Source of the DNA: Deltaproteobacteria bacterium ADurb.Bin207
GTDB taxonomy: Bacteria; Myxococcota_A; Polyangia; Polyangiales; Polyangiaceae
Length of the DNA: 64,000 bases
Direction: 5' to 3'
Assembly (NCBI GenBank): GCA_002070115.1
Contig: MWCO01000021.1
Location: 1-64,000 of the forward strand
Shown here in pieces: positions 54,441 to 63,765 of the stretch. The position numbers were made by a program, and so were the translations under genes. The notes under the pieces are model-generated. The model did no database searches, was not told the DNA's origin, and saw only the letters and a list, made by a program, of their open reading frames with translations. Position 1 is the first letter of the stretch. Each line of letters begins with the position of its first letter.

Positions 54441-56915
54441 GTGCTTTCACCACGAACCCTCACCGTCGCTTGCTTTCTCCTTGGTCTGCCCTTGTTGCCC
54501 GTGGCATGCGGATCATCGGAAGACAATTCCGCATCATCCGGTTCCGGAGGAAAACCATCGGATGCGGGTTCGGAAGACGGAACGGGCGGGACGGGTGGCG
54601 CGGTCGGCGGCTCGGGAGGAACAGGCGGGGGAGTCCTCATCGATGCCTCGAATGGATGCAAATCCGCCGCGGATTGCGACGGCGGCGTTTGTTTGCCAAG
54701 CGGCGTCTGTTGTGAATCGGCCGATCGTGCGTGCGGAGACGTTTGCTGCCAGGCTGGCGATGCATGCCTTTTTGGAGCATGCGTTACCCCCGGGGATATC
54801 TGTTTCACACCAGCCGATTGCCCAGACGGACATTATTGTGAGCCCGCCCTTGGTTCTTCCTCTTCCCCCGATGCGGGAAGCCCCGACGCCGCCCCGCCGG
54901 AAGATGGCGGTCCTATCTGCACCCAAGATACGCCCCCCTCAGGTCGATGCGTCCCCGCTCCCATCGTCTGCGATGACAAAGGCCAACCCCCGGGTTGTGT
55001 CGAACCCTGCGAATACAAACCGAAACCAGGAGCGCTTCGTACGGTGGTGAAGTGGCAATGGGGAATGGAACCAAAACCCACGGAATATCAAGACTTTGCC
55101 GATGTTTGGGCGACTCCCGCCGTGGCTCGTATCTACGATGCGAATTGCGATGGCAAAGTGGACTTGGCGGATCCTCCCAACATCGTATTCGTTTCCGGTA
55201 ACGCGAAACGCACGTGTTGTAGTTGCTCCGGCGATGCCGTTTCCACTTGCCTCACCGGTGTGCTTCGGATGCTCGATGGCCGGAATGGACGCGAGATCTG
55301 GTCCTTGCCCAAGGCTTCAGCGACAAGCACGGGGTTTGCCGGGATGAGTGTGGCGGTGGGTGACGTCGATGGGGACCAGCTTCTCGATATCATTGCCATG
55401 ACAGGCGAGGGCCATATCGCCGTGATCAATCACGATGGGACTGTCAAGGCCATCAGCACCGAAAAAGCGGATGGCCACGACGCCGGCACGTTCGGATGGG
55501 GCGGTGGCATCGCCATCGGTGACATGGACAATGACGGACGCGTGGAAATCGCTTATGGCAGAACACTTTTCAGCTACAACGACAAGGGACAAGTCGAACG
55601 CTTGTGGGTAGGAACCGCAGGCTCCGGCAGCGGACTTGCCCAGGCCCTCTCGCATTTCGTCGACCTCGATGGCGATGGCACGCTTGAACTTCTCGCGGGG
55701 CGAACGGCCTATCGCAAAGATGGGTCGATGCTGTGGAACAATTCCGAAGCCAACGGGTTCACCGCCGTGGGAGACTTCGATGGCGATGGTTTGCCCGATG
55801 TCGTGGTGGTTCACAACGGCACGATTCGTATTCTCAAAGGTCTTGATGGAACCATCTTGCTTGGCCCGCTGACACTACCCGGAACGGGAAGCGGAGGCCC
55901 GCCGACCGTGGCCGACTTCGATGGAGATGGGAAACCGGAGATTGGTGTAGCGCAACAAAACCTGTATTCGATGCTCAAACCCGATTTCACCAACAACCAA
56001 ATCAAAGTGGTTTGGTCTCAAACCAACCACGACATGAGTTCTTCCGTCACCGGATCGAGCGTTTTTGACTTTCAAGGAGATGGCAAGGCGGAAGTCATCT
56101 ACAACGACGAGTGCTATCTTTGGGTGTACGACGGCGCCGACGGATCCATTTTGTATACGGACTTTACGCAATCGTTCACCGCTACCGAGTCGTCCATCGT
56201 GGCGGACGTCGATGGCGATGGACATGCGGAACTCGTCAAAATAGCCAATGGAGCGAATCCCAACACTTGGTCCTGCGCTCACCACGATGAGCCAGGAAAA
56301 ATCGTGGCCCCCCATACAGAGCCTTTCCCCGTCTGGCAACCCGCTCCAAGCGGCGACTATCGGGGAATTACCGTCTTGGGGGATGTCGAAAACGCATGGG
56401 TCGGAACACGTACTCTCTGGAATCAACACGCGTATGAGGTGACCAATATCTGTGATCCAAGGGATAGCGCTTGTGAAAGTGGTTCCTATTACGGACAAAT
56501 CCCAAAGAACCAGAAGCCCAATTGGAAACAACCCTGGCTCAATAATTTCCGACAAAACGTGCAAGACAAAGGCGTTTTCGATGCGCCGGACGCTACCGTA
56601 TCGTTGAGCGTTTCTTGCCGAATGCCCGTCCCCCTTACCGTAAGCGTTCGTAACATGGGGCTGTCTGGCCTTCCCGCGGGAGTCGAAGTCGGATTGTTCC
56701 GCGTCGCCTCTCCCGACCAACACCTCGGCTCCGTCTTCACATCGATTCCTTTGCTTCCGGGTCAAACCGAAGTGATTGAATACGACGCCCAAAATGCAAC
56801 GACCGGAGACACCTTTTTTGCGCGGATCCTCGTGGATCCCGCGACCCCAACGTTCCGAGAATGCCGGGATGACAACAACGAGAGCCAACGTGTCACGCCA
56901 TCGTGCGTGCAATGA
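54441..56915 (+). CDS. FG-GAP/VCBS repeat lipoprotein 1
   Basis: 824-aa lipoprotein with lipobox PVAC and a Gly/Ser linker. A Cys-rich part follows (CKSAADCDGGVCLPSGVCC, CGDVCCQAGDACLFGAC), then about 400 residues of FG-GAP repeats, each with a Ca-loop such as VGDVDGDQLLD, IGDMDNDGRVEI, FVDLDGDGTLEL, VADFDGDGKPEI or VADVDGDGHAEL. These are typical of integrin-alpha-like beta-propellers. The C-terminus has CARDB-like segments (VSVRNMGLSGLPAGV). GTG 54441 has AGGAG 8 bp before. Extracellular adhesion or matrix role inferred. Confidence 0.85.
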   Translation: MLSPRTLTVACFLLGLPLLPVACGSSEDNSASSGSGGKPSDAGSEDGTGGTGGAVGGSGGTGGGVLIDASNGCKSAADCDGGVCLPSGVCCESADRACGDVCCQAGDACLFGACVTPGDICFTPADCPDGHYCEPALGSSSSPDAGSPDAAPPEDGGPICTQDTPPSGRCVPAPIVCDDKGQPPGCVEPCEYKPKPGALRTVVKWQWGMEPKPTEYQDFADVWATPAVARIYDANCDGKVDLADPPNIVFVSGNAKRTCCSCSGDAVSTCLTGVLRMLDGRNGREIWSLPKASATSTGFAGMSVAVGDVDGDQLLDIIAMTGEGHIAVINHDGTVKAISTEKADGHDAGTFGWGGGIAIGDMDNDGRVEIAYGRTLFSYNDKGQVERLWVGTAGSGSGLAQALSHFVDLDGDGTLELLAGRTAYRKDGSMLWNNSEANGFTAVGDFDGDGLPDVVVVHNGTIRILKGLDGTILLGPLTLPGTGSGGPPTVADFDGDGKPEIGVAQQNLYSMLKPDFTNNQIKVVWSQTNHDMSSSVTGSSVFDFQGDGKAEVIYNDECYLWVYDGADGSILYTDFTQSFTATESSIVADVDGDGHAELVKIANGANPNTWSCAHHDEPGKIVAPHTEPFPVWQPAPSGDYRGITVLGDVENAWVGTRTLWNQHAYEVTNICDPRDSACESGSYYGQIPKNQKPNWKQPWLNNFRQNVQDKGVFDAPDATVSLSVSCRMPVPLTVSVRNMGLSGLPAGVEVGLFRVASPDQHLGSVFTSIPLLPGQTEVIEYDAQNATTGDTFFARILVDPATPTFRECRDDNNESQRVTPSCVQ

Positions 56916-56937: not shown

Positions 56938-57759
56938 TCACATGAACCATTTTTTCGTGTGATGGACCCGGTCCCCAAACGCTCGTAGGAACGCCATCTG
57001 CTCTTCGTCCAACGGCCCTTTCCGAACCGCCGCCAGATTCTCTTCGAATTGCTTCAGATTCGAAGGCGCCGTCAAACAAACATCGACATGGGGATTGTTC
57101 AATACGAATCGATAGGCATCCCCCGCCGTGGGTAAGGGTTGGGAATCGTCCCATCCCTTGGGGCGACGTATCAGATATCACCAGCGTGTGGCGGTGTAGC
57201 TGATGATGGCGGGATCGTGAGCGGAAAGATGTGGAAAAATATCTATTTCCGCTCCTCGATGCGCCGCGTTGTAGCGGATCATCAAGGTGTCGAATTGCCC
57301 TTCCGAAGCAAGCCGCCCCGCCAATTTCCGATCGTGCGTCGAAAGCCCGATGCGACGCACTTTGCCCTCGTCCCGCAGGCGTACCAGCTCTTCCCGCACA
57401 TGGGCCGGAAACTGCTGTTCATCCATGACGCCCAGAAAAAGCATCACGTCGAGATAGTCCGTTCGAAGCTTTCGAAGACGAGCCTCCAACGTTTTTCGGA
57501 CGTTCGTATGGGTCCAGATGAGATTGTAGGCGCCTGTCACCAACACGATTCGTTCGCGTTGGGAGACGAACGCCTCCCGAAGAGCGTCGAGCATCTGCCC
57601 ATCGATACCATAGGCGAAAAACACCTGGATCCCTTCGTCAAGTGCGCGAAAAATAACGCGTTTTCCTGGACGCTACGAAGCGGATAGTCCTAGCCGATGA
57701 ACCCACGGACCCGTCCGTCCGAAGCGCGAATGGAGATAATCCTGCTGAGGTTCGGGCAT
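56938..57759 (-). pseudogene. Aldo/keto reductase with two in-frame stop codons
   Basis: Minus strand from ATG 57759. The frame is open for 28 codons (MPEPQQDYLHSRFGRTG, WVHRLGLSAS), then TAG at 57673-57675. It continues with RPGKRVIFRALDEGIQVFF and YGIDGQMLDALREAF for 160 codons to SYTATRW, then TGA at 57178-57180. It continues again as YLIRRPKGWDDSQ, AGDAYRFVLNNPHVDV, TAPSNLKQFEENL to a stop at 56938. All 274 codons stay in one frame, with no indel. The first stop stands where relatives carry Tyr (GASYRPG-like), the second where CGA to TGA would be one change. It follows the phosphatase gene by 3 bp. Recent pseudogene is most likely; sequencing error or recoding are alternatives. Confidence 0.85.
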
Positions 57760-57762
57760 GAG

Positions 57763-58842
57763 CTACTTCTTGGCGGGAGGCGCGCTGGGGGGTTGCGATC
57801 GCTTGGCGTCGGTTTTCCAAACCCCAGTCTCGGCCATTTCGACGAGCGCCTCGGTGGACTGCGGGATTGAGACCGTTTGCTTTCCATACATCACCGGCCC
57901 CAGTTCCGAGATCGATAGCGTACACAAAAGACCTTTCTTGACGTTGCGAAGGTCAATGATCACCGCGGAGATCGACCATGTGGAAGGATCCAAAAGTCCA
58001 CTCACGATCGGATGGAGCTGGCCGTCCGATGTCTTGACGAATATCGATCGAAGATCGTTGAGCCCAATGTATTGCGTATCCAACAAGGAAGCCTCGGTAT
58101 CGATACGCGCCACGACCACGGTAATGTTGTCCTGGCCTCCCGCTTCGTTGGCCATGTCCACGAGTCGTTTGGCCGCTTCCCGTGGTGTCGCGCCCGCAAG
58201 CGTAAGACGAATACGCGAGTCATCCACCATGTTCGTCAGCCCATCGCTGCACAACAGAATCACGTCTCCGGCGGATAGCGAGATGGGTTCTCGGTCGCAA
58301 ACGTCCACCGACGGCTGGGTTCCCAAAGAACGAGACACGATGTGGGTGAAGTTTTGAGGCAGATTGCCAGCCATGGTTGGCCCTTTGGCATCGGCAATCT
58401 CCTGGACGAAACTATGGTCTCGGGTGAGAGGAAAGAGGGTCAAGGCTCGCAACAAATAGGCACGGGCGTCACCGACGTGGGCCACGTAAAGCTTGCCACC
58501 CGAGATCAAACCGGCGACACAGGTGGCCCCCATCGTACGCCCCACTTCTTCCGCTTCCTTGAAGACAACGGCATTGGCTTTCCTCAAGGACTTCGCGAGG
58601 CTTTCCTGCGGTTGATCCGTGGATTCCCGAAGGCTTTCCTGGATCGTGTTGAGCGCCATGATCGCCGCGCGATCACCATAATCGTGTCCGCCCATCCCAT
58701 CGGCCACCGCGAGCAAGTAGCCGAGCGGAACACCCACTTCGACCAAAGCATCCTCGTTTTTCTGACGCTGCCTGCCTACATCGGTATGAAAACCCACGAA
58801 GACCTGGAAGCGAGGAGGAGGTAATGAAGTTGATTTGTTCAT
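57763..58842 (-). CDS. PP2C-type serine/threonine phosphatase with C-terminal extension
   Basis: 359 aa. PPM metal-binding motifs: QKNEDALVEV, LLAVADGMGGHDYGDRA, VAHVGDARAYLL, LCSDGLTNMV and GGQDNITVVVA, all with their Asp residues. The C-terminal 90 residues (SIFVKTSDGQLHPIVSGLL, WSISAVIIDLRNV) resemble a PRC-barrel. It may oppose Hanks-type kinases, which are numerous in myxobacteria. It begins 36 bp after the Lon-like gene and ends 3 bp before the broken aldo/keto reductase, so it is the middle of an operon. ATG 58842 is preferred; an in-frame GTG-type start at 58857 adds five residues. Confidence 0.9.
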   Translation of the reverse strand: MNKSTSLPPPRFQVFVGFHTDVGRQRQKNEDALVEVGVPLGYLLAVADGMGGHDYGDRAAIMALNTIQESLRESTDQPQESLAKSLRKANAVVFKEAEEVGRTMGATCVAGLISGGKLYVAHVGDARAYLLRALTLFPLTRDHSFVQEIADAKGPTMAGNLPQNFTHIVSRSLGTQPSVDVCDREPISLSAGDVILLCSDGLTNMVDDSRIRLTLAGATPREAAKRLVDMANEAGGQDNITVVVARIDTEASLLDTQYIGLNDLRSIFVKTSDGQLHPIVSGLLDPSTWSISAVIIDLRNVKKGLLCTLSISELGPVMYGKQTVSIPQSTEALVEMAETGVWKTDAKRSQPPSAPPAKK

Positions 58843-58878
58843 GGCTGACAACCACACGCTCGCTCGTTCACGGGGCGA

Positions 58879-61377
58879 TCACCAATCCCCATCGAAACGC
58901 TTCTGAAAGTCCACACCCGCATCGACATTGTCCGGATCGCTCGTGTCCGCAATGGCTCCCCGATCCACGGGACCAGCCTCTGCATCACGAAGCAATTCAG
59001 CAAGCTCAATCAGCCGACGTTCGACTCGCCCAAACACGCTTCCAGCGGGAAAACGCCCGCTGGCATCACGCGATCCCGCTTGCAAACCCGTCAACACTTC
59101 GATCCCCTCACTCACACTCGAGATCGCATATAGATGGAATTGACCGTCTGCAATGGCTTTTGCCACATCCGGTCGCAAAACCAGATGCCGAAGATTGGTT
59201 TTGGGTATCATCACCCCTTGCGCACCCGTCAATCCCCTCGCCTTGCATACATCAAAAAATCCTTCGATTTTTGCGCATACGCCACCAATGGCCTGGATAT
59301 CCCCAAGCTGATTCACCGAGCCAGTTACCGCGATGCCTTGATCGATACCCACATCGGCCAGAGCGCTCAAAATCGCAAACAGTTCCGATGAACTCGCGCT
59401 ATCCCCATCAACCTCACCATAGGATTGCTCGAACGCTATCTGTACCCGCAAACTCAGCGGTCGCTCCTGTCCAAAAAGCAACGACAAAAAACCACGAACG
59501 ATCGCTACCCCTTTGGTGTGAAGAGAACCTCCTAGCTGCGCCTCACGCTCCACATCAATCACGCCATCACGTCCAATCGATACCACCGCCGTGATGCGCA
59601 TCGGTTGCCCAAACTCCACATCCCCCGCCGTCAATACGCTCAACCCATTGATCACGCCCACCCGCGTTCCCGACGTATCCACCAAAAACTCGCCCCGAAT
59701 GGCAAGGTCCCGAACCTCCCGTTCGATGCTTCCCGAACGCTCTCGACGCTCATGCCACGCGGTCTCGATATCATCGTCCGTGACCAATCCGTCTCCCCGC
59801 TCGGCCGCACGCAGGGCAGCGAAACAGGCGGTTTCCTCGAGAGGCAATACGGTCAGGGCAAGACGTTCCCTATCGCCGGATAGACGTGTGGCAAAGTCCA
59901 AAAGACGCGCACGGGCACCGCGCGAAAAACTCGCTTCCGTTTGCTTCACCGTCGGTAACGACATCAAATACGAGTCGAGCTTGCGCTGATTGTCCAGCGT
60001 TCGCTCCACCCACCAGCCCACCTCGACCTTGACGCGAAATAGCGTGCTGAAGTCCGGGTCGAGTTGCATGAGCTGGTCGTAAAGATGCTGCGAACCAATG
60101 AGCAGCACACGAACATTCAAGGGTATCGGTTGCGGTCGCAACGTGGTTGCATATAAACTGACCGGCCCGATCGGATCCTCGATCGTCAATTCCCGATCTC
60201 GAATCACGCGTTTGAATCGCTCCCAAATCAGCGGATCCGCCAAAAGATCCGCCGCGCGCACCAACAGCGTTCCCCCGGAAGCATGGGCTACCGCTCCTGA
60301 ACGGATGCGAAGAAAGTCCGTGAGCAAGGCGCCAAATCGGGCGCGTCGTTCTAAGTATCCGAAAAGATTGGGAAAACTTGGTGTATGGGCATCTACGACC
60401 GGCGCTTTCGCGTCGGGACGATGGCTGACAAATACGTTGACCCGAAAACGCCCCGTGCGCTTCGCCACTTCGGGATTGCCCCGGTCCACCTCGTCGGCGC
60501 GCGACTCCTGCTGCTCATCGGCCTCGTTGGTAGGTTCGGTGAAGTCTCGCCAATCGCGCGCCAATTCCTCTCGAATCCGCTCCAAATACGCCACCACCGG
60601 CTCGATGCCACGGAACGATTGCAACAGCGGCTCGATGCTCGTGCCAATCACCTGCTCCGCGGCTTTCTGCTGCGCATCATCGCTTGCCGCATTCACATTG
60701 TCCGTCATCTCATGAATACGCTTGGCCGATTCTTCGACCGCCGCGGACAACTTCTGCTCCGCATCCGCCAGAGCACGCTTGGTCGATTCGTCGAGCACCT
60801 CGAATTGCTCGGGACTCACCGGCTTGCCATGCAAAATCGGAAACGTCTGTACGCCCCCGGGCACCGCTTTGACCCCAAATCCAAGCGTTTTCGCAAAAGA
60901 CTCCAGGTCCGACACCACCTGCTTGTTCTTGCTCGATAGCTCTTTGGCCAAAGCTTCTTCCGCTTCGCGTACGATCGGCATCGCACCAAGATGCAACAAC
61001 CGATACGCCAACTCGTCGATGACCTTGTCGACCTCCAACGCAAGCTCTCGCCCTCGCCCCGCGGGCAATATCAAGGGCTTGGGAGATTCCGGACGCTCGA
61101 AGTCATGGACGAAAACCACATCGTTGGGCGCGGGTAGCGCCTGCGCCGCCGCCTCGGCCGCTCGCAGAATATCCTTGTCGAACGTCAAATCCGGATCACA
61201 CGCCACATACACGTGAAAGCCAGGGTTCCGAAGAGATAGACCCAGCGTCAACGCTTTGCGCGTATGCTCCGGCAACAACTCGAACCTGTCGCCCACCGCT
61301 TGTAACTCGTCCGTCAGTGTCTCGGGATCTGTCCGAAGGGTCACTTGCTCAGCAGGCACTTCTCGATTCGAACGCAT
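58879..61377 (-). CDS. Lon-family protease (AAA_32/LonB-like) lacking Walker motifs
   Basis: 832 aa. The C-terminal Lon protease domain (about residues 590-800) keeps the dyad Ser in GDSASSSELFAILSALAD and Lys in GGVCAKIEGFFDVC. The N-terminal domain follows the AAA_32 Lon-like proteins (LSLRNPGFHVYVA, NDVVFVHDFERPESPK, LPAGRGRELALEVDKVIDEL), but the P-loop GxxGxGK is replaced by ACDPDLT near 59-65, and the Walker B strand reads GGTLLVRAADLL without Asp. ATP use is thus unlikely. ATG 61377 with GGAG 6 bp before is chosen over a start at 61467. First of an operon with the phosphatase and AKR genes. Confidence 0.88.
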   Translation of the reverse strand: MRSNREVPAEQVTLRTDPETLTDELQAVGDRFELLPEHTRKALTLGLSLRNPGFHVYVACDPDLTFDKDILRAAEAAAQALPAPNDVVFVHDFERPESPKPLILPAGRGRELALEVDKVIDELAYRLLHLGAMPIVREAEEALAKELSSKNKQVVSDLESFAKTLGFGVKAVPGGVQTFPILHGKPVSPEQFEVLDESTKRALADAEQKLSAAVEESAKRIHEMTDNVNAASDDAQQKAAEQVIGTSIEPLLQSFRGIEPVVAYLERIREELARDWRDFTEPTNEADEQQESRADEVDRGNPEVAKRTGRFRVNVFVSHRPDAKAPVVDAHTPSFPNLFGYLERRARFGALLTDFLRIRSGAVAHASGGTLLVRAADLLADPLIWERFKRVIRDRELTIEDPIGPVSLYATTLRPQPIPLNVRVLLIGSQHLYDQLMQLDPDFSTLFRVKVEVGWWVERTLDNQRKLDSYLMSLPTVKQTEASFSRGARARLLDFATRLSGDRERLALTVLPLEETACFAALRAAERGDGLVTDDDIETAWHERRERSGSIEREVRDLAIRGEFLVDTSGTRVGVINGLSVLTAGDVEFGQPMRITAVVSIGRDGVIDVEREAQLGGSLHTKGVAIVRGFLSLLFGQERPLSLRVQIAFEQSYGEVDGDSASSSELFAILSALADVGIDQGIAVTGSVNQLGDIQAIGGVCAKIEGFFDVCKARGLTGAQGVMIPKTNLRHLVLRPDVAKAIADGQFHLYAISSVSEGIEVLTGLQAGSRDASGRFPAGSVFGRVERRLIELAELLRDAEAGPVDRGAIADTSDPDNVDAGVDFQKRFDGDW

Positions 61378-61476
61378 GGTCGTCTCCAACCCGGCCAACT
61401 TCCGATCAACCCGGGGGCTGCATTGGTAGCACTTCATTCGGCCGAGGGAATCCCGAAAACACCGCAAACCATCCCA

Positions 61477-61905
61477 TCACTTCCACCATCGGTCATACGC
61501 GAGCACCACCACCCCCAAAATCGCTCCCAAAGCACCGCCTACTATCTTTATCCAAGAAATCCAATGTTCCCGAGAGTCTCCCTGCACGTTGGCTTTTTGC
61601 CACTCTTCTCCCTGTAGCGTCAGCATGATCTGAGACCGCTGCGGATGCGCGTTCCACGTTTCTTCCCGCACCTTGCGTTCCAATACCCGCGGCTTGTCTC
61701 CTTGCCATACCCGAATCCGAAGAATGAGGTCCGGTTCCGCGACGTTTCGTGAGGGCGACGTATACCGCTCCAGCACTTCTCCCTGCACGCTCCGACGGGC
61801 TTGCCAGGGGGGACCGTCCATTCGAAACGTGTACAAAAGCAACACCAATCCGCCCACCAGCAAAAAGGCCCCAAGCGGCTTGAGCTTCAGCTTGTCCATG
61901 AACAA
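61477..61905 (-). CDS. Two-helix membrane protein, unknown
   Basis: 142 aa. Helix 1 LGAFLLVGGLVLLLYTFRM near the N-terminus and helix 2 WIKIVGGALGAILGVVVLAYDR near the C-terminus flank about 80 extracytoplasmic residues with a beta pattern (SVQGEVLERYTSPS, LILRIRVWQGDK). The topology is like that of DUF3592-type proteins. A TTG at 61905 has GAGGA 5 bp before; an ATG at 61899 is an alternative with poorer spacing. It is 99 bp upstream of the Lon-like gene on the same strand. Confidence 0.65.
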   Translation of the reverse strand: MFMDKLKLKPLGAFLLVGGLVLLLYTFRMDGPPWQARRSVQGEVLERYTSPSRNVAEPDLILRIRVWQGDKPRVLERKVREETWNAHPQRSQIMLTLQGEEWQKANVQGDSREHWISWIKIVGGALGAILGVVVLAYDRWWK

Positions 61906-61986: not shown

Positions 61987-63765
61987 TCAATGACCATTCG
62001 GTTGCCCCATCCGAAGCGGCCCCCCCCGCGCCGTCGGCCAAAGCATGCAATGCGTCGATGAACCCGGCACCGTAAACACATCCATCCCATGTTCAAAGGT
62101 CTGCACGAAAATCTCGAGCTGCCCATCCCCATCCAGATCCCCTACCGTCGGCGCAGCGGGAGCCCCATTGCCATTGCCGTTTTTGCCCGGATTCGGCAAA
62201 GCCACCGTATGAAGCTCGGTGCCATCCGCCCCCAAAATCACCAGATGCCCCGAATCCAACACATCCGGCGCCCCGTACGTCGCAAAAATACACTCCGGTG
62301 AACCATCCTGGTTCAAATCCACCACCATCACTTCCGTCGCAACCATCACCGCTTTGCCAAACGTATAATTGTACCGCCATATTTCCTTTGCCTCGCTGTC
62401 AAACGCGTGAATGAACCCATCGTTGAGCGATACCACGATCTCCGGTCGATCGTCGCCTTGAAGATTCACCGTGGTCGGCGAAGGAATCCCTCCCGGTGGA
62501 TAGTAGCCTTTCACCGAAATCGGACGATTGCCTCGTGGCAATACGTCCCAGCCCTCTTTTCGCATGGCCGAACGAGTCCCGTCTCCATACGCCCCCTGCA
62601 AGACCATCACCGCATACGCTTGCGTTTCGTACGGTTCATGCATCTCCACGTTGGGCACTCCCAGCACCTCGTTTTTCCCGTCGCCATCCAAATCCACCAC
62701 ATTCGGTGGCGACGCCGTCCACTGCAACCACTCTGCCCAACTCGGATGAGGCCAGTCCCCTGTATGGTCGTGATAGTGATTTTTCTCGACCTCAGGGTCC
62801 GCCCAACGAATGAACTGACCCCACGTCAGACGCTCCCCCGCATGGTCCGAACCACGATTCGTAAACCAAGGGGAAGCATCAAGCGCAACCCCGTCGTGGT
62901 CGAAAGCTTGGATATGATGATTGTCATAGGTGACAAGGATTTCCAAATCATCGTCGTCATCGATATTGCCGATTCCCACATTCAATCCGAAACAGCCGTA
63001 GCCATGATGGCCTTGGCCGTTGCGGTCGGCATCATTGCCCTTTCCCGCTGCGGCATTGTAGCGCGGCCACGCCTTCCATTCGATCCCCGCCGGCTGGTGA
63101 AGCGTGCCATCTGCCCGAAATACAAAGACTTGTGCCCCCCCCTTTTCCGTGCTCGCCGTTTGTGTGGTGGTGGCCACAACCTCAATGAAACCGTCGCCAT
63201 CCAAATCCCCCGCCGCCAGCCCCCGTACCTCCGGAGCATTGCCCGCCGTCGTCGTATCCACCGGCCACCCGGACTTCATGACGAGCTTTCCATCGCGCCA
63301 CTCCATCGCGAAAACCTGATGATCATTGCCAAATACGACCTCCGTAATGCCGTCACCGTCGAGATCGGCCACGACATGCGGCGCATAAATCCGTCCGTCG
63401 CCAGCCTTCACACGGTCCAACTCCTTTCCCTGCTCGTCGAAAACATAGACGGAATAATACGCGGCAATGAGTTCGTTGCGCCCATCGCCGTCGAGATCGT
63501 AGACGATGGGAGAGGCGAACCATGATGTCTGACCCCGTAAATTCATCACGAATTCAGGGGCTTGCACCTCGCCGGCGCTGGTTCCTTTGGCACAAGTCGG
63601 ATTACGAACTCCTCCCGTGCTGCCTCCACCCGTGCCGATGACAGGGCCGCCCGAGGGCCCGCTCGTCTCCTCCGAACCACAGGCACCGTGAGATAACGCG
63701 ATGAGCAAGGTCGTAGCCAATGCCATACGGCTCAACACCGTCCGCTGCACAATCGTGTTTCGCAT
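61987..63765 (-). CDS. FG-GAP/VCBS repeat lipoprotein 2
   Basis: 592-aa lipoprotein with lipobox HGAC. FG-GAP repeats with Ca-binding loops fill the chain: VYDLDGDGRNELIAAYY, VADLDGDGITEVVFG, AAGDLDGDGFIEVVA, VVDLDGDGKNEVLG, VVDLNQDGSPECIF and VGDLDGDGQLEIFV. It should form a beta-propeller outside the cell. Compared with the 54441 protein it has no Cys-rich front part and is shorter. ATG 63765 has GGAG 6 bp before. It ends 81 bp before the small membrane gene. Confidence 0.87.
   Translation of the reverse strand: MRNTIVQRTVLSRMALATTLLIALSHGACGSEETSGPSGGPVIGTGGGSTGGVRNPTCAKGTSAGEVQAPEFVMNLRGQTSWFASPIVYDLDGDGRNELIAAYYSVYVFDEQGKELDRVKAGDGRIYAPHVVADLDGDGITEVVFGNDHQVFAMEWRDGKLVMKSGWPVDTTTAGNAPEVRGLAAGDLDGDGFIEVVATTTQTASTEKGGAQVFVFRADGTLHQPAGIEWKAWPRYNAAAGKGNDADRNGQGHHGYGCFGLNVGIGNIDDDDDLEILVTYDNHHIQAFDHDGVALDASPWFTNRGSDHAGERLTWGQFIRWADPEVEKNHYHDHTGDWPHPSWAEWLQWTASPPNVVDLDGDGKNEVLGVPNVEMHEPYETQAYAVMVLQGAYGDGTRSAMRKEGWDVLPRGNRPISVKGYYPPGGIPSPTTVNLQGDDRPEIVVSLNDGFIHAFDSEAKEIWRYNYTFGKAVMVATEVMVVDLNQDGSPECIFATYGAPDVLDSGHLVILGADGTELHTVALPNPGKNGNGNGAPAAPTVGDLDGDGQLEIFVQTFEHGMDVFTVPGSSTHCMLWPTARGGPLRMGQPNGH

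Follow-up and report, generated by a model that had tools for sequence, protein, structure and literature searches.

MtaLonC, the Lon-like protease of Meiothermus taiwanensis (TTC1975 type; MEROPS S16.007), has no ATPase activity; in the absence of ATP it degrades unfolded peptides and proteins but spares folded ones (PMC3391209). The enzyme retains a Walker-A-like sequence (GPPSLGKH) and a Walker-B-like sequence (GYLILDA), and it shows residual binding of ATP-gamma-S (PMC3391209). Its oligomer is described as a hexamer in that study (PMC3391209) and as a heptamer by the title of PDB entry 8k8v. Two insertions with the consensus sequences CX3GLX(G/E) and phiX2Aphi define the LonC type (PMC3391209). 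LonC proteases pose the question of what role is played by an AAA+ ring that is unable to use ATP, and nucleotide binding by MtaLonC leaves a regulatory role possible. Archaeal LonB proteases carry working Walker A and B motifs as well as a transmembrane insertion. The AAA_32, LonB LID, and B-type protease domains of TonLonB (PDB 3k1j) are homologous to those of the Lon protein analyzed here.

That protein is encoded in a stretch of 64,000 nucleotides (the window) from contig 21 of a 6.5-Mb draft genome; the nearest relatives of the window in named records are metagenome-assembled genomes (MAGs) of Myxococcales/Polyangiaceae. An earlier note on this DNA proposed an ATP-independent Lon. This remains the best reading of the gene, but since MtaLonC has been characterized as ATP-independent, the idea describes an already known kind of protease, LonC (PMC3391209). 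The window protein is of interest not for ATP-independence as such but for an ATP site whose erasure is complete and fixed, with an apparently charge-inverted replacement.

A LonC-type Lon protease in the window

The open reading frame at 58879-61377 is real and has the coordinates given in the earlier note; the three landmarks named there (NPGFHVYVA, FVHDFERP, and AGRGREL) are all found in the protein. A longer frame that begins with TTG at 61467 is a possible alternative; in the closest relative (L037), the position aligned with the ATG is preceded by a stop codon at a distance of just five codons. Pfam matches above the curated cut-offs are AAA_32, LonB_AAA-LID, LonC_helical, and Lon_C. The features of the gene and its phosphatase neighbor are as follows.

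58879-61377, minus strand: Lon protease of the LonC type, pseudo-AAA+ module, 832 amino acids, ATG at 61377
61153..61221, minus strand: former Walker A region, residues 53-75, GFHVYVACDPDLTFDKDILRAAE, an acidic loop without Gly60, Gly65, and Lys66
61024..61122, minus strand: LonC helical domain (PF20437), residues 86-118, E 4.4e-7, 30.2 bits (cut-off 24)
60022..60408, minus strand: AAA_32 (LonB-like AAA) domain match, residues 324-452, E 1.5e-38
60241..60279, minus strand: former Walker B region, residues 367-379, SGGTLLVRAADLL, placed by alignments
60256..60258, minus strand: Arg374 at the Walker B Asp site
59737..59928, minus strand: LonB-type AAA+ LID domain, residues 484-547, E 6.1e-9
59068..59685, minus strand: S16 protease domain of Lon, approximately residues 565-770, carrying both LonC insertions
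59398..59400, minus strand: catalytic Ser660 (VDGDSASSSE)
59269..59271, minus strand: catalytic Lys703 (IGGVCAKIEG)
57763..58857, minus strand: PP2C-type Ser/Thr phosphatase, PP2C_2 3.9e-17, Stp1_PP2C 7e-59

An AF2 model based on 78 sequences from the window and the loci (pLDDT 86) supplied the structure prediction called for in the earlier note, and its fold matches MtaLonC best. Over the whole chain, with 583-715 residues aligned, the model superimposes on MtaLonC with a VIA Z of about 40; LonB (3k1j) reaches 22.9 and LonA about 20. Foldseek yields a TM (target) of 0.85 to MtaLonC and an E value of 5.7e-53 to 8k8v; the closest solved structures by sequence are likewise all MtaLonC (E 2.5e-77). 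In a tree that includes no LonA or LonB rows, MtaLonC and E. coli YcbZ join as long branches.

The protease domain contains both insertions that define LonC, CKARGLTG and VAKAI when aligned to MtaLonC, and residues C711, G715, L716, and G718 of the former are nearly invariant in the 78-sequence alignment. The Ser-Lys dyad described as intact in the earlier note is indeed present. Ser660 and Lys703 are invariant in the same alignment, and among the members of the Polyangia clade described below they are kept wherever the site is covered (48 of 48 and 47 of 47, respectively). Asp659 precedes Ser660, and the dyad is spaced by 43 positions (42 residues between), as in a B-type active site. The window protein thus shares with MtaLonC its domain order, helical insertion, LonC insertions, fold, LonB-type active site, and lack of functional AAA+ motifs, and by these features it is a LonC-type Lon. 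The genome holds three further full Lon_C matches of 272-317 bits; the fifth-scoring Lon_C region (L004) proved on inspection of its sequence to be a YifB/ComM-type protein.

Erasure of the nucleotide site in a Polyangia clade

The P-loop position of the window Lon reads GFHVYVACDPDLTFDKD, and its Walker B strand, LLVRAADLL, contains no acid. The missing Walker A and B motifs reported earlier are therefore borne out; a shifted P-loop was sought as G-x4-GK across the entire 832-residue protein and none was found. Neither the Walker A sequence GxxGxGK[ST] nor the Walker B DE that characterize LonB occurs in the protein. A folded AAA+ domain is occasionally able to bind nucleotide through non-canonical residues. 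Compared with MtaLonC, the window protein has lost the P-loop glycines, the P-loop Lys, the Walker B Asp, and the GQxR box on the adenine side, and it carries Arg at the Walker B position. MtaLonC is therefore not an exact model of the window protein, because it keeps GPPSLGKH and still binds ATP-gamma-S.

The degeneration is not peculiar to the window gene. A survey of relatives for the same substitution, suggested in the earlier note, gathered 50 distinct members of one clade from genome collections; by hand count, the clade occurs in at least 48 of the 289 Polyangia genomes sampled and in several families. It forms a single branch in the tree (33 members, SH-aLRT 100), all without Walker A. 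The sequence G-x4-GK[ST] is found in 0 of the 50 members, and the Walker B Asp site is Arg in 50 of 50. Residues that are nearly fixed among 183 relatives outside the clade, namely Gln36 (98%) and Arg38 (96%) of the GQxR box and Gly60 (99%) and Gly65 (97%) of the P-loop, are lost inside it, as is Lys66. The loop formed by residues 60-70 has a mean acidic excess over basic residues of 3.8 in the clade versus -0.8 outside, and at least one acid lies within residues 61-69 in 48 of 48 members.

Motif loss as such is also what a decaying gene would display, in which the ATPase motifs drift away and the protein disappears. We regard this as extremely improbable and reject it. Reading frames are open in nearly all of the 50 relatives, the dyad and Arg374 are invariant, and computed dN/dS values in close pairs are 0.01-0.25 in the pseudo-AAA region and in every domain. 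The low values in every domain indicate purifying selection that maintains the pseudo-AAA module along with the rest of the protein. Together with the uniform Arg, the missing P-loop, and the conserved dyad, they also argue that the loss reflects neither chance nor sequencing error. Judged by these alignments, the loss of the ATP site in the Polyangia clade is ancient and fixed, and the clade differs from other members of the family in that the set of nucleotide contacts is lost as a whole. Unlike MtaLonC, the Polyangia proteins probably no longer bind nucleotide.

A literature search, whose coverage left out most subscription journals, returned papers on LonC, none on the Polyangia clade, and no biochemistry of any clade member. 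What is new here is the ancient, fixed loss, the erased GQxR box, and the acidic loop that accompanies an invariant Arg.

Proposed working of the protease and its gene neighbors

We consider it very likely that the window gene encodes a LonC-type, ATP-independent Lon in which the AAA+ module serves only as structure and would no longer bind or hydrolyze nucleotide. By analogy with LonC proteases, an intact dyad combined with an erased ATP site most likely means that already-unfolded proteins are degraded without ATP. The pseudo-AAA+ ring would be kept as structure, probably for oligomer formation, as an entry pore, and as the roof of the proteolytic chamber. Unfolded or loosely folded chains could diffuse through an open pore into the hollow oligomer, where the Ser660-Lys703 dyad would cut them. 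The genome's three other full-strength Lon proteins, which could provide the ATP-dependent Lon function, would deal with folded proteins. We infer that the acidic former P-loop, paired in a salt bridge with the invariant Walker B Arg, probably seals the nucleotide pocket from the inside. A clade in which all nucleotide contacts are erased under strong purifying selection, with a conserved replacement, offers a natural test of the AAA+ ring as purely a scaffold and gate.

The gene that follows lon prompted a rival reading. The PP2C gene starts 21 bp downstream of the lon stop codon on the same strand, and the earlier note raised phosphorylation-linked regulation. On this reading, a Ser/Thr kinase and the neighboring phosphatase, rather than ATP, would turn the protease on and off. 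Such control has precedent in Xanthomonas citri, where phosphorylation of LonA on Ser is inactivating (PMC5784255); this makes such control of the window Lon possible, with adjacency as the only evidence for it here. L037 and L038, the two closest relatives, have the same gene pair (70% identity), and many clade members instead carry a divergently transcribed FHA-GAF-cyclase gene beside lon. However, none of the other clade loci that were read contained the pair, so that adjacency holds in only three close genomes. Adjacency is weak evidence even there, because each of these genomes has a PP2C paralogue (G000 C6, G015 C264, and G022 C24) and the window genome has ten PP2C matches. The search also gave no phosphosite. 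Control of Lon by phosphorylation seems to us unlikely.

The extra domain of the phosphatase was also described as PRC-like, an assignment that we could not reproduce: the C-terminal region has no Pfam match at E values up to 10, and a genome search with PF05239 gave no match there. This domain of about 100 amino acids (LHPIVSGLLDPSTWSISAVIIDLRN...) is common to the second PP2C copy in only the same three genomes. An AF2 model built from three sequences (pLDDT 36) was too poor to judge its fold.

The FHA-GAF-adenylate/guanylate cyclase gene adjoins lon in 18 grouped clade loci and is divergent where examined; conserved examples from Polyangia include L062:2664-4688, L041:2477-4558, and L058:2836-4725. 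An apparent second Lon-like open reading frame upstream of many orthologues turned out to be the antisense shadow of this gene. The link between cyclase and lon is not general, because the window genome carries its cyclase (65% identity) on another contig (C9). In the window, a small membrane protein is encoded at 61477-61905, directly upstream of lon. An aldo/keto reductase reading frame at 57178-57624 (148 amino acids) matches positions 48-191 of a 291-position Pfam model and is probably a truncated gene. Two large proteins (54441-56915 and 61987-63765), whose N-termini resemble those of lipoproteins and which contain repeated DGDG(D/E) motifs of the FG-GAP/VCBS-like kind, flank the lon-PP2C region.

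Basic residues and ATP motifs across the AAA_32 Lon family

The Polyangia clade stands at the far end of an erosion that, from the alignments, runs through the whole family. Among the 183 relatives outside the clade, Lys or Arg is kept in the P-loop of 163, whereas the Walker B site is Asp in only 46; Gln, Glu, Pro, Asn, Lys, and His are common there. The catalytic Glu of Walker B was found in none of about 190 bacterial AAA_32 Lons sampled. Its absence casts doubt on ATP hydrolysis across the family, and names such as "ATP-dependent protease", that of E. coli YcbZ included, therefore need caution.

In comparing the two halves of the former site, we noticed that basic residues at the P-loop and at Walker B are almost mutually exclusive. 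Among 231 family members, a basic residue is present at the P-loop only in 159, at Walker B only in 65, at both in 4, and at neither in 3 (Fisher p 1e-50, uncorrected and with ancestry ignored). An independent-pairs test that accounts for ancestry gave p 0.25-1; it is unable to reach significance because the two changes occur together in no more than about two origins. The second origin lies in Desulfobacterota. In a group of these proteins (L068, L174-L180, L185-L189, L191, and L193), the P-loop Lys is lost (TGLT, TGMT, or TGVV), and most of them have Lys, in one case Arg, at the Walker B Asp site. These Lons differ from the Polyangia clade in that the P-loop glycines are mostly kept, and they occupy a separate branch of the tree. 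Further losses of the P-loop Lys were sought in Firmicutes and Chloroflexi samples, and none were found.

Two explanations suggest themselves: a salt bridge may close the site, or an anion contact may have been relocated. It is tempting to speculate that the site has become charge-inverted, with the acidic former P-loop locked to Arg so that the ring is blind to nucleotide, and that the Desulfobacterota parallel reveals a repeated requirement for a basic residue; we hold this only as a tentative possibility. If it were true, the basic residue of the Walker B strand would either close the site or bind another anionic ligand.

Relocation is the rival account of the same residue. WNK kinases, with their displaced lysine, offer an analogy. 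The Arg or Lys at Walker B might contact the phosphate in place of the missing P-loop Lys, such that the ring would still sense nucleotide or another anion. The near-exclusive distribution across the 231 members and the rise of the basic residue in two groups, one of which mostly retains the P-loop glycines, are consistent with this proposal. It sits poorly with the Polyangia proteins themselves, which lack the glycines and the GQxR box and whose acidic loop is unfavorable for phosphate. Moreover, loss of the P-loop Lys in L228, L190, and the E. coli YcbZ type came without any new Lys or Arg, and the pattern has the few origins and the ancestry-aware p values given above. We therefore consider relocation quite improbable and retain the reading of a LonC-type protease whose AAA+ module is structural.

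E. coli YcbZ (LonH) and its gammaproteobacterial relatives resemble the window Lon in their AAA_32-type architecture and intact Ser-Lys dyad. YcbZ has no canonical Walker B (GGILIISL), and its Walker A position reads SFMLAKAPEESEY by an alignment with an hhalign E value of 0.066. The proteins are shorter than the window Lon (about 550-620 amino acids), do not contain the long helical insertion, and have Ser at the Walker B site; YcbZ is only distantly related to the window protein, and its loss is a separate one. The ycbZ gene of E. coli K-12 (L117:2540-4300) is annotated as a putative ATP-dependent protease, and its product has no P-loop by alignment (AKAPEESEY). From its motifs, YcbZ is probably not ATP-dependent. 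The same state of dyad and motifs appears to hold in its gammaproteobacterial relatives L233-L249.
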